Part shown: positions 1-3,223 of the stretch, piece by piece
Numbering within the stretch: the stretch's first letter is position 1
Layout: every line of letters starts with the position of its first letter
Source of the DNA: Streptomyces agglomeratus
GTDB lineage: Bacteria > Actinomycetota > Actinomycetes > Streptomycetales > Streptomycetaceae
NCBI RefSeq assembly: GCF_001746415.1
Contig: NZ_MEHJ01000001.1
Coordinates: 5,958,501 to 6,022,500, forward strand
DNA length: 64,000 nt
Direction of reading: 5' to 3'
The notes under the pieces: generated by a model
What the model saw: only the letters and a program-made list of their open reading frames with translations
Told to the model about the DNA's origin: nothing
The model's database searches: none
Made by a program: the position numbers and the translations under genes

Positions 1-581
1 CCGCAGCGCACGCCGCACGCCTGCTGGCGGTCTACCCCGCGGGCGAGTTCACCGTCCATGTCATCGATCCGGCCGGCACGGGCGCGACCGCGCTCGCGCC
101 GCTGACCGAGTCCGGAGTGCTCGACGAGCCGGCCGCAGCCGGCGCGCAGGGGGTGACGGCGGTGCTGGCCAAGCTCACCCAGCGGGTGGAGCTGGTGCAG
201 ATGGCCGTCCGCGGCGGGGCCGTGGACTCGCTCCCGCCGGACCTGGACACGGCCGAGCAGCTCCTGATCGTCAACGACTTCCCGCACGGCTTCGACGACC
301 GCGGCGTCACCCAGCTCCGGTACCTGGCGGACGAGGGCCCGTCGGTCGGCGTCCACCTGATGATGGTCGCGGACCGCGAGGGCGCGACCGCGTACGGGCC
401 CGTCCTCGACCCACTGTGGCGGTCGCTGCTGCGCGTCACCCCGGTGCCCGACAACCACCTGATCGACCCGTGGGTCGGTCACACGTGGACGTTCGAGCCG
501 CTGCTGCCGCCGCCGGGCAGCCAGGTCGTACGGCAGGTGCTCGCGCAGGTGGCCGCGGCGCGGCGGGCACTGCCCCGCTGA
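1..581 (+). CDS. FtsK/SpoIIIE-like ATP-binding protein, C-terminal fragment
   Basis: The 5' end lies outside the window; the open frame is read from base 3 and gives about 192 residues up to the stop at 579-581. A Walker B-like hydrophobic strand ending in NDFP is followed by a Leu-rich helix and a segment (GVHLMMVADRE) that resembles the C-terminal motor of FtsK/SpoIIIE or EccC-type ATPases, where Walker B precedes a GIHLVLATQRP-like strand. No Walker A is visible in this piece. It ends about 250 bp before the TerC-family gene. In related actinomycetes, large FtsK-like proteins near TerC/TerD genes are often called tellurium-resistance or export-associated, but the role is not established. 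Family assignment rests on this fragment alone. Confidence 0.55.
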   Translation, partial: AAHAARLLAVYPAGEFTVHVIDPAGTGATALAPLTESGVLDEPAAAGAQGVTAVLAKLTQRVELVQMAVRGGAVDSLPPDLDTAEQLLIVNDFPHGFDDRGVTQLRYLADEGPSVGVHLMMVADREGATAYGPVLDPLWRSLLRVTPVPDNHLIDPWVGHTWTFEPLLPPPGSQVVRQVLAQVAAARRALPR

Positions 582-641
582 GCCACTGCGGTCAGTCCCT
601 GACGCGCTGACCGGTGCTTTTGGTAGTGCTTTACCCATCCC

Positions 642-671
642 TTTACCTTCTCTTGGGTGTTCCTGTACCCT
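642..671 (+). promoter_or_regulatory. Candidate promoter for the terC leader
   Basis: TTTACC (642-647) and TACCCT (666-671) are separated by 18 bp, an acceptable housekeeping sigma (HrdB-type) arrangement. A start about 7 nt downstream, near 678, would begin the transcript just before helix P1 of the riboswitch at 681. The match is visible in the sequence; its use is inferred. Confidence 0.45.
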
Positions 672-674
672 TCG

Positions 675-836
675 AGGAGCGGAGGGGAGTACTCCCGGCT
701 GCGACGTACCCGTCAATACGGACCGCCATCGGTCCCGGGGCGTCGGCCCGAGTCGCGCGGATACGCACTCGGGTGGAAGAGACCTCCGGCAGCGACGACG
801 CTGAGTGAGATGCCGTAGCTATCTGCCGGAGGCGCA
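675..836 (+). promoter_or_regulatory. yybP-ykoY (manganese) riboswitch controlling terC translation
   Basis: The leader contains the conserved aptamer elements of the yybP-ykoY family: GGGGAGTA (684-691), CGTCAATACGG (711-721) and AGACCTCC (780-787). Helix P1 is GGAGG 681-685 with CCTCC 783-787. Internal hairpins are GGACC 720-724/GGTCC 731-735 and CCCGAGT 747-753/ACTCGGG 767-773. This class senses Mn2+ and often precedes TerC-like exporters. The 3' P1 strand 783-792 is perfectly complementary over 10 bp to 823-832, which contains the terC Shine-Dalgarno GGAGG (828-832). Ligand-bound P1 would therefore free the ribosome-binding site, and the alternative pairing would hide it. That mechanism is inferred from the complementarity. 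Confidence 0.85.
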
Positions 837-1844
837 GTGGACGTATCAATGACCCTTTGGGCGCTGACCATTCTTGGTCTGATCGCCCTGATCGCAGTCG
901 ACTTCCTCATCGGCCGCAAGCCGCATGACGTGTCGATCAAGGAAGCCGGAATCTGGACGGTCGTCTGGATCGTCCTGGCCGTGCTGTTCGGCCTGGGACT
1001 GCTGACCTTCGGTACCGCACAGGCATCGGGCGAGTTCTTCGCCGGCTTCATCACCGAGAAATCGCTGAGCGTCGACAACCTCTTCGTCTTCGTCCTGATC
1101 ATGGCGAAGTTCTCGGTACCGAGCCACCTCCAGCAGCGCGTGCTGCTCGTCGGGGTGCTCATAGCCCTGGTGCTGCGTGCGATCTTCATCGCGGCCGGTG
1201 CCGCGGTCATCGCCAACTTCTCCTGGGTCTTCTACATCTTCGGCGCGTTCCTGATCTACACCGCCTGGAAGCTCATCCAGGAGGCGCGGGCCGACGAGGA
1301 GGAAGAGGCGTTCGAGGAGAACCGTCTCCTCAAGTCGATCGAGAGCCGCTTCGGTGTCGCCGACAGGTACCACGGCACCAAGCTTTTCATCCGGAACAAC
1401 GGCAAGCGCGTCCTGACGCCGCTCATGGTCGTCATGCTCGCCATCGGCACCACCGATGTGCTGTTCGCGCTCGACTCGATCCCGGCGATCTTCGGCCTCA
1501 CCCAGGACCCGTACATCGTCTTCACCGCCAACGCCTTCGCCCTCATGGGTCTGCGGCAGCTGTACTTCCTCATCGGCGGACTGCTCAAGAAGCTGGTCCA
1601 CCTGAGTTACGGCCTGTCGGTCATCCTGGGCTTCATCGGCGTCAAGCTGGTGCTGCACGCCCTGCACGAGTCCGGGGTGCACGTGCCCGAGATCTCCATC
1701 CCGTTCTCGCTGACCGTCATCTGCGGCGTGCTGATCGTCACCACGATCACCAGCCTCATCGCGAACAAGAAGACGGAACAGCGCGCGGCGGCCGAGGCGG
1801 CAGACGCTGCCCGGGCCGACGACAAGGAGAGCGTCGAGTCCTGA
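837..1844 (+). CDS. TerC/Alx-family integral membrane protein (probable Mn2+ exporter)
   Basis: This 335-residue polytopic membrane protein has the family hallmarks: EKSLSVDNLFVFVLIM near residue 75 and FALDSIPAIFGLT near residue 210, whose acidic residues lie in membrane helices. About nine hydrophobic segments are visible, and the C-terminus is an Ala/Asp/Glu-rich cytoplasmic tail. The GTG start at 837 is chosen because GGAGG lies 4 nt upstream; an in-frame ATG follows at residue 5. TerC proteins were named for tellurite resistance, but members under yybP-ykoY riboswitches (Alx, YkoY) export manganese, and the riboswitch here supports that role. It may also help metallate secreted enzymes, as reported for Bacillus homologues. 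The gene appears to be transcribed alone and ends at a strong terminator. Confidence 0.9.
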   Translation: MDVSMTLWALTILGLIALIAVDFLIGRKPHDVSIKEAGIWTVVWIVLAVLFGLGLLTFGTAQASGEFFAGFITEKSLSVDNLFVFVLIMAKFSVPSHLQQRVLLVGVLIALVLRAIFIAAGAAVIANFSWVFYIFGAFLIYTAWKLIQEARADEEEEAFEENRLLKSIESRFGVADRYHGTKLFIRNNGKRVLTPLMVVMLAIGTTDVLFALDSIPAIFGLTQDPYIVFTANAFALMGLRQLYFLIGGLLKKLVHLSYGLSVILGFIGVKLVLHALHESGVHVPEISIPFSLTVICGVLIVTTITSLIANKKTEQRAAAEAADAARADDKESVES

Positions 1845-1850
1845 CCGCGT

Positions 1851-1908
1851 CACGGACTCACCGGCCGGTGCGAGCGGAGCGATACCGCCCGCACCGGCCG
1901 GTTCCGTG
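1851..1908. terminator. Bidirectional terminator between terC and the transporter pseudogene
   Basis: CCGGCCGGTGCG (1861-1872) pairs with CGCACCGGCCGG (1890-1901). The helix can extend through CACGGA (1851-1856) with TCCGTG (1903-1908). It sits between two convergent genes, so it can serve both strands. There is no U-tract, which is common in Streptomyces. Confidence 0.75.
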
Positions 1909-1922
1909 TGTACGGCCCGGGG

Positions 1923-3223
1923 TCAGGCAGTGGCGGGTTCCGCCACCGGATCGGCCACCGGCCTGGTCTCCGGCAGCAGCGCGAAGCAGCCCAGGCTCAG
2001 CAGCGCGATGGCGGTGAGATACAGGCCGACACCCCACGGCGGCCCTTCGCCGTCCGCCACCGCCGTCGCGACGAGGGGGGTCAGCGCGCCGCCGAGCACC
2101 CCCGCGAGGTTGTAGCCGACGGCCGCGCCCGTGCACCGCACCCTGGGCTCGTACAGCTCCGGCAGATACGCGGCGACCACCGCGAACATGGTGATGAAGG
2201 CCAGCTGCGCCCCGAGGAAGCCCAGGAACATCAGCAGCGGTTCCGCGGTGTGCAGCAGCGCGACCATCGGGAACATCCACAGCGCTGTCGCCGCGCAGCC
2301 CGCCAGGCACAGCGGCTTGCGCCCGTACCGGTCACTGAGCATCGCGGCGAACGGAGTGGCCGCTCCCTTGATCGCCACGGCGGCCATGATGCAGGTGAGC
2401 ATCACCGTGCGGCTCACACCCAGGTGCTCGGTCGCGTACGACAGGGACCAGGTCGTCACGGCGTAGAACACGGCGTATCCGACGGCGAGCGCGCCGGCCG
2501 TGAGCAGGACGAGCCGCCAGTGGTCGCGTACGACCTCGGCGAGCGGGACGCCCGCGCGCTCGCCCGTCTCGGCGAGCTCCTTGAACTGCGGGGTCTCGGA
2601 CAGGGACGTACGCAGCAGGAGTCCGGCCGCTGCCAGCAGCCCGGCCGCCCAGAACGGCACACGCCACCCCCAGGCCGCGAACTGCGCGTCGGTCAGCGAG
2701 GCCGACAGGGCCAGCATGACGCCGTTGGCCAGGAGGAAACCGACGGCGGGACCGATCTGGGGAAACTCGCCCACAGTCCGCGGCGGTTCGCGGGGGCGTG
2801 CTCGGCGGTCAGCAGTACCGCGCCGCCCCACTCGCCGCCGAGCCCCAGACCCTGGAGAAAGCGCAGCACCAGGAGGAGTGCGGGCGCGGCCACTCCGATC
2901 GACCCGTACGTCGGTACGCAGCCGACCGCGACGGTCGCGATTCCCGTGAGCAACAGTGAGGCGAACAGGACAGGACGGCGTCCGTAACGGTCGCCGATGT
3001 GCCCGAAGACGACAGATCCGAGCGGTCGTGAAATGAAACCGACTGCGAAGGTGCCGAACGCCGCGAGCGTTCCCGCGAGCGGTGAGAAGGTCGGGAAGAA
3101 GAGAGGCCCGAGAACGAGCGCGGCGGCCGTTCCATAGACAAAGAAGTCGTAGAACTCGATGGCTGTTCCGGCGAGCGACGCGGTGGCGAGGCGGGCCATG
3201 GAGGGAGGTCGTTCCTGGTGCAT
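1923..3223 (-). pseudogene. MHS-family MFS transporter, frameshifted
   Basis: Two overlapping frames together make one metabolite:H+ symporter (ShiA/ProP-like MFS). The N-terminal frame begins at 3223 (MHQER; a start at 3199, MARLAT, is possible) and shows EFYDFFVYGTAAAL and the motif GHIGDRYGRR. It runs to APANRRGLWASFP. The downstream frame continues as QIGPAVGFLLANG to the stop at 1923, with about eight further helices. The break falls at a run of four G at 2759-2762 on the + strand. One extra G would restore a single protein of about 433 residues. This is either a real one-base deletion or a homopolymer sequencing error. The substrate is unknown; relatives carry organic acids, betaines or shikimate. 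Confidence 0.85.

Follow-up and report, generated by a model that had tools for sequence, protein, structure and literature searches.

The terC leader of Streptomyces agglomeratus is probably a riboswitch of the yybP-ykoY class that senses Mn2+ and turns translation on. It lies in a stretch of 64,000 nucleotides (hereafter the window), of which positions 675-836 span an aptamer (680-788) and the Shine-Dalgarno (SD) sequence and end directly 5' of the start codon. In the mechanism that we propose, the terC mRNA would start at P1 and carry a Mn2+ aptamer of this class at 680-788. At low Mn2+ the strand 783-792 would pair with 823-832, so that the SD is hidden and TerC synthesis is low. At high Mn2+ the metal would bind between L1 and L3 and lock P1 (680-685/783-788) ahead of the synthesis of the SD strand, and the locked P1 would leave the SD open and turn TerC on. 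The aptamer class, its conservation, both alternative helices and the linked gene are supported by sequence and comparison, while we infer that Mn2+ is the ligand, that the switch works in the ON direction, that the helices fold in this order and that translation rather than transcription is the controlled step.

Passages of PMC9294342 describe the yybP-ykoY class as sensing Mn2+ and acting by release of the ribosome-binding site (RBS) or by antitermination. According to a passage of PMC11647493, Mn frees the otherwise hidden RBS of Escherichia coli mntP, and this type of mechanism is therefore not new. The preliminary description had remarked that few such switches have been dissected; nothing among the literature matches listed contradicts this, but the type of mechanism was already published for mntP. 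Among those matches, which were open-licence papers, none dealt with this leader in Streptomyces, and the words yybP, manganese and terC are absent from the main text of three papers on Streptomyces transcript boundaries.

Layout of the terC leader and its transcript

For comparison, 69 leaders that precede genes for TerC homologues were gathered from the family to which the window belongs, the S. agglomeratus leader included; the set was chosen for diversity and contains paralogues, and thus gives no prevalence. A P1/L1 block is present in 48 of the 69. One of these, L043, has a much longer P4 and platform and was left out of the alignments, which leaves 47 family rows. A wider alignment has 79 rows (78 plus the E. 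coli alx leader). The label L054 stands for a 10-base dummy region and was dropped. The features of the leader are as follows.

642..671, + strand: predicted promoter, with TTTACC at 642-647, an 18-nt spacer and TACCCT at 666-671 (conserved motif)
680..685, + strand: P1 5' strand CGGAGG; pairs in 47/47 aligned family leaders, with a compensatory A-U at one pair in 2
686..691, + strand: L1 5' strand GGAGTA, metal-dock loop; identical in 47/47 family rows; 686 and 688-691 in 79/79 wider rows, 687 G in 76/79
692..695, + strand: P1.2 5' strand, partner 775-778; 85.6% of cells paired, both-side change in 1/4 pairs
702..745, + strand: P3 arm with CGACG/CGTCG, CCC/GGG, L3 GTCAATAC at 712-719 and distal hairpin GGACCG/CGGTCC; both-side changes in 10/14 pairs
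715..715, + strand: candidate Mn-site adenosine; A in 78/79 rows, gap in 1
747..773, + strand: P4 hairpin CCCGAGT/ACTCGGG; both-side changes in 6/7 pairs
779..782, + strand: L1 3' strand GAGA; 780 and 782 identical in 79/79 rows, 779 and 781 in 78/79
783..792, + strand: switching strand CCTCCGGCAG; 783-788 closes P1, or 783-792 covers the SD
790..803, + strand: small hairpin CAGCG-ACGA-CGCTG; each of 5 pairs standard in 33-35/47 family rows
823..832, + strand: CTGCCGGAGG, carries the SD and pairs with the switching strand; from direct reading and comparison of family leaders
837..1844, + strand: terC gene, GTG start, 335 aa; PF03741, E 3e-52; homologue in 148/150 family genomes

Direct reading confirms the ten-base-pair complementarity claimed in the preliminary description, with the switching strand being the exact reverse complement of 823-832 across a 30-nt loop. 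The SD, GGAGG at 828-832, lies inside this downstream strand, and the GTG start codon at 837 comes 4 nt later and opens the gene for a TerC protein. As P1 is formed by CGGAGG with CCTCCG at 783-788, the strand 783-788 is common to P1 and to the SD-covering helix, and the two helices are mutually exclusive, as in a translational riboswitch. The aptamer motifs that the same description had recognised are also present, namely GGGGAGTA at 684-691, CGTCAATACGG at 711-721 and GAGACC at 779-784. The small hairpin at 790-803 would presumably compete with the final 3 pairs in the helix that covers the SD.

A match to TTTACY-N16/19-TAnnnT occurs within 60 nt 5' of P1 in 40/48 aptamer-bearing leaders; it is found in 10/21 leaders without the aptamer and in 7/2400 shuffled upstream stretches. 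On the sequence of this motif, the RNA start would be expected at about 678-680, right at P1. If the promoter is used, a start of the mRNA at P1 would parallel the actinobacterial terC gene of Corynebacterium glutamicum (cg2157), for which Rfam predicts a yybP-ykoY element (49.13 bits). RNA-seq places the start of the cg2157 5'-UTR at a distance of 6 nt from the end of the predicted RNA, according to a passage of PMC3890552. In contrast to the S. agglomeratus leader, that of cg2157 was detected by the Rfam model of the time (same passage of PMC3890552). Two further yybP-ykoY predictions in C. glutamicum are given there as not observed, and the passage proposes no switching model. In four relatives (L041, L044, L047, L048) the promoter-like block ends 6-7 nt before the start codon, and their mRNAs may thus be leaderless.

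The switching model had been put forward without a terminator, and this agrees with a scan of 560-900 for intrinsic terminators, in which the single match (604-617) lies 5' of the predicted promoter and was rejected. Furthermore, a start codon and not a T-run follows the SD helix. A leader without an intrinsic terminator also accommodates the possible, but in our judgement rather unlikely, reading that the same aptamer acts mainly on transcription: with the SD covered and no ribosomes on the mRNA, Rho would end transcription of the leader, and control of translation would be secondary. Such a combination has a precedent within the class, since a passage of PMC11647493 reports that E. coli mntP joins RBS release with Rho-dependent termination. 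However, the strand that is conserved downstream in the terC leaders coincides with the SD and precedes the start codon, which argues for translation as the controlled step. At the far end of the gene, a long GC-rich inverted repeat (window 1853-1906) lies where terC and an MFS transporter gene converge, and is perhaps a shared terminator.

Aptamer class and linked genes

Assignment of the leader to the yybP-ykoY class, as made in the preliminary description, is carried by cross-detection with a model, R1, that we built from the 47 aligned family leaders. R1 gives the S. agglomeratus leader, a member of its training set, 111 bits, matches L043 at 50.8 bits and is found in 104/150 family genomes at E<=0.001. 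Decisive in our view is its match to the E. coli alx leader, which is absent from the training set: the score is 42.8 bits, with E 6e-8 for a search of 9.5 kb. The E. coli mntP leader is matched weakly (14.1 bits, E 0.098). Among 21 loci of the phylum found with the curated Rfam model RF00080, R1 at E<=0.02 recovers four at the same places (L073, L074, L080 and L082), including L073, the sole one of the 21 above the Rfam cut-off, and misses 17. Accepted members of the class are thus detected by an independent model. A phylum-wide search with R1, filtered strictly and limited to 15 scored candidates in each genome, gave matches at E<=0.05 in 48/246 genomes, 8 of which belong to the genus of the window and are mostly sources of training leaders.

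The curated model itself gives no match at this site. The preliminary description had named a search with the Rfam yybP-ykoY covariance model as a check and had counted a missing match against its reading; when scanned with Rfam, neither 1-3000 (E<=1) nor 640-870 (E<=10) yields a Mn-riboswitch match, and none is reached at the curated cut-off in the S. agglomeratus terC leader. Matches to mir-4018, proV and flavivirus families in these scans were dropped as far below their respective cut-offs, as were two RF00080 matches in the S. agglomeratus genome (13.1 and 10.4 bits) that lie at places other than the terC leader. RF00080 also has no match at E<=5 in 20 leaders of relatives (18 with and 2 without the aptamer), nor in the alx leader at the same threshold. 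On the mntP leader it scores 41.6 bits (E 1.2e-8) against a cut-off of 45, so that the E. coli stretches holding the mntP and alx leaders yield nothing from RF00080 at the gathering cut-off. In control searches it has a match in E. coli and is above the cut-off in 2/14 control genomes (which two is not stated). Across the 246 phylum genomes it is above the cut-off in 1 and at E<=0.1 in 20, thresholds that differ from that used for R1. Because the model also misses alx, scores mntP below its cut-off and passes 1/246 phylum genomes, its miss at the S. agglomeratus leader discriminates poorly. This pattern suggests that the curated model sees little of the clade described by R1 and that the yybP-ykoY class is under-annotated in the phylum.

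The two E. coli leaders resemble the S. agglomeratus leader in different ways. The alx leader has the same aptamer, as judged by cross-detection, and a TerC-family gene downstream, but the longest helix from its aptamer 3' strand stops short of the start region and its start codon lies 81 nt beyond the aptamer. The mntP leader shares the hiding and Mn-dependent release of the RBS described in a passage of PMC11647493, but it belongs to another gene family, is scored far lower by R1 than by RF00080, and is also acted on by Rho. In E. coli K-12 (L124:1462-1558 and L125:1876-1999) RF00080 nearly passes mntP and misses alx, and R1 does the reverse.

At the level of sequence, the L1/L3 core is conserved throughout the 79 wider rows, with 688-691 invariant and position 713 in L3 being A rather than T in 5/79. 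We take L1 GGGGAGUA and L3 GUCA to be the core that docks the two stacked helices in this class. Presuming the letters of the Lactococcus lactis aptamer, we place A715, the invariant L3 adenosine, opposite its A41. A41 is an N7 donor to Mn2+ according to a passage of PMC9190785. Helices P1, P1.2, P3 and P4 are supported; in the linker 696-701 we could not identify a hairpin of its own for P2. Within the 47 family rows, 18/31 aptamer pairs change on both sides, which 0/500 shuffles reach, and 89.8% of cells are paired, a value that falls to 40-54% once the 3' partners are slid and that is matched by 0/500 shuffles. P3 and P4 covary in this alignment. One pair of P1.2 (692-778) is C-A in the S. 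agglomeratus leader and in 26/47 family rows.

The genes 3' of the aptamer were surveyed in 53 other aptamers (47 R1 matches in other families, L128, 4 RF00080-found loci and alx), taking as the downstream gene the best match among open reading frames that start at most 330 nt downstream. These genes encode TerC in 31 cases, a P-type cation ATPase in 8, GDT1 in 4 and a Na/Ca-exchanger type protein in 4. The remainder are one M50 protease, one PGPGW protein and 4 with none, of which two (L104 and L114) end with the contig. The same counts were obtained with Pfam-checked queries. A TerC gene or one for Mn2+/cation export therefore follows the aptamer in 47/53 other cases, as TerC does here. The membrane protein TerC belongs to a family with links to Mn export or metal delivery, and TerC, P-type ATPase, GDT1 and Na/Ca-exchanger neighbours fit Mn2+ export. 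Among the exceptions, L112:1501-2825 has an R1-type aptamer (57.1 bits) followed by a gene for an M50 peptidase that carries a CBS domain, CCTTCGGC/GCCGAAGG lying a short way 5' of the peptidase start codon, and L148:307-863 has an R1-type aptamer (37.9 bits) 5' of a PGPGW small membrane protein. The genome that holds the TerC paralogue L152 (G000:C2:183535-184467, 44% identity) also holds the terC gene studied here, and R1 reports one aptamer only there.

The gene survey also bears on the ligand. A regulatory leader that senses a signal different from Mn2+, for example pH or another divalent metal, is conceivable given that alx responds to alkaline pH as well (in a passage of PMC9603457). We consider this improbable, as the core is kept, including the presumed N7-donor adenosine, and the linked genes belong to the TerC, GDT1 and cation transporter families.

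The switching strand in relatives

A complement of ten bases that includes the SD could have arisen by chance in GC-rich sequence, or could form a hairpin that only adds stability and has no tie to P1. Exact-arm hairpins (arms of at least 10, loops of 3-40) do occur at 19 places in the GC-rich window, the terC leader included, and the SD consensus by itself fixes part of the helix. Dinucleotide shuffles of 793-836 reproduced the 10-mer complement in 5/20,000 cases. Because long exact hairpins are not unique in the window, conservation is the better test of this pairing.

The pairing 783-792/823-832, which the preliminary description had proposed to look for in relatives, is kept: each of the 48 aptamer-bearing family leaders has both the 3' strand and the SD strand. 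The SD helix starting from 783 runs unbroken for 8-10 pairs in 47/47 aligned leaders and, with G-U allowed, comprises all 10 in 35/47. Covariation of both helices, also suggested there as a check, is less uniform. Family covariation in the P1/SD helix rests on two leaders, because both helices hardly vary within the family; these are L034 and L051, the only P1-variant family leaders, in which all three strands changed together (CGAAGG/CCTTCG/CGAAGG). Further coordinated three-strand sets appear in the wider sites (ACGAGG/CCTCGA/TCGAGG and CAAAGG/CCTTTG/CAAAGG). The claim that the P1 3' strand can switch between P1 and the SD is thus upheld by conservation in the family and by changes in step with P1 elsewhere.

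Two tests addressed the wider loci quantitatively, using 50 other loci (45 R1 matches in other families, L128 from the genus of the window and 4 RF00080-found loci). The E. coli locus L125 and the two that end with a contig (L104, L114) were left out of these tests and of the three-strand comparison. The 10-nt P1 3' strand paired with its own downstream strand gives a mean of -14.0 kcal/mol, versus -10.8 kcal/mol (sd 0.3) for swapped strands, and the best of 2000 strand permutations reached -11.7 kcal/mol. Locus by locus, the own strand beats at least 95% of swaps in 15/50. Against shuffled downstream sequence, the P1 3' strand reaches p<=0.05 in 30/50 other loci and in 26/26 loci of the family set. 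Both tests count related loci as they stand, so that kinship is still contained in these values. Overall, a helix of at least 6 pairs from the P1 3' strand is present in 65/76 wider sites and lacking in 11/76. With both pairings in 48/48 leaders, the swap test in favour of the own strand, and P1, its partner and the SD strand varying jointly in distant loci, an accidental hairpin is very unlikely.

The switching strand of L073 and L080 is again the 3' strand of P1, but there it forms a hairpin that has a T-run behind it and no SD, and may thus act as a terminator arm. An automatic sorting of 79 sites into SD and terminator types (60/7/7/5) proved crude, calling alx an SD type despite a helix far from its start codon and marking some T-rich start regions as terminators; no count given here rests on it.

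Metal-free folding favours the SD-covered state in 48/48 leaders, by 3.1-16.7 kcal/mol, and the mean probability that the SD is unpaired is below 0.1 in 45/48. For the S. agglomeratus leader the covered state is favoured by 6.4 kcal/mol, or about 11 with a longer stretch. Since the metal-free fold covers the SD, the default state would be OFF, and ON would have to be set during transcription. Transcripts cut before the SD strand have a mean P1 pairing above 0.5 in 31/48 leaders, but the probability of P1 in the truncated S. agglomeratus transcript is only 0.09. This low P1 pairing is the main computed weakness of the switching model, and the gap would have to be closed by binding of the metal. 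The whole leader is not unusually stable (z -1.28).

The 21/69 family leaders without the P1/L1 block, paralogues included, offer a view of loss. In the terC leaders L033, L035, L052 and L055 the aptamer is shrunken or replaced, and a pair of the CCTCCGGC/GCCGGAGG type is left. The idea that aptamer-less leaders keep an SD-freeing, P1-like hairpin was dropped, as the SD stays paired in folded L035 and L052; folding of L055 and L033 is mixed, and the four have no common state. These losses, together with the relatives predicted to be leaderless, could be taken to mean that the S. agglomeratus switch has decayed as well, with an intact aptamer and an effectively constitutive terC, but this is highly improbable as its core positions and both helices are intact and its R1 score is high, albeit for a training sequence.

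A proposed clade across the phylum

Taken together, the comparisons lead us to favour, with some reserve, a phylum-wide clade of Mn2+ switches that is poorly covered by Rfam. In this clade the P1 3' strand would be fitted to the SD or to a terminator, with three strands changing in step, and the device would have been reused for TerC, P-type ATPases, GDT1 and Na/Ca-type exchangers, with some relatives having lost the aptamer and kept the promoter. The low coverage of the clade by the curated model and the conservation of the three strands are its less expected aspects.

The contrast between 1 and 48 of 246 genomes found by RF00080 and R1, at their different thresholds, points to under-annotation of the class. 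The three-strand changes allow the switching model to be tested from sequence, and relatives without the aptamer are natural controls. The S. agglomeratus terC leader is a compact and concrete system in which to test how Mn2+ may control translation in a high-GC actinomycete.
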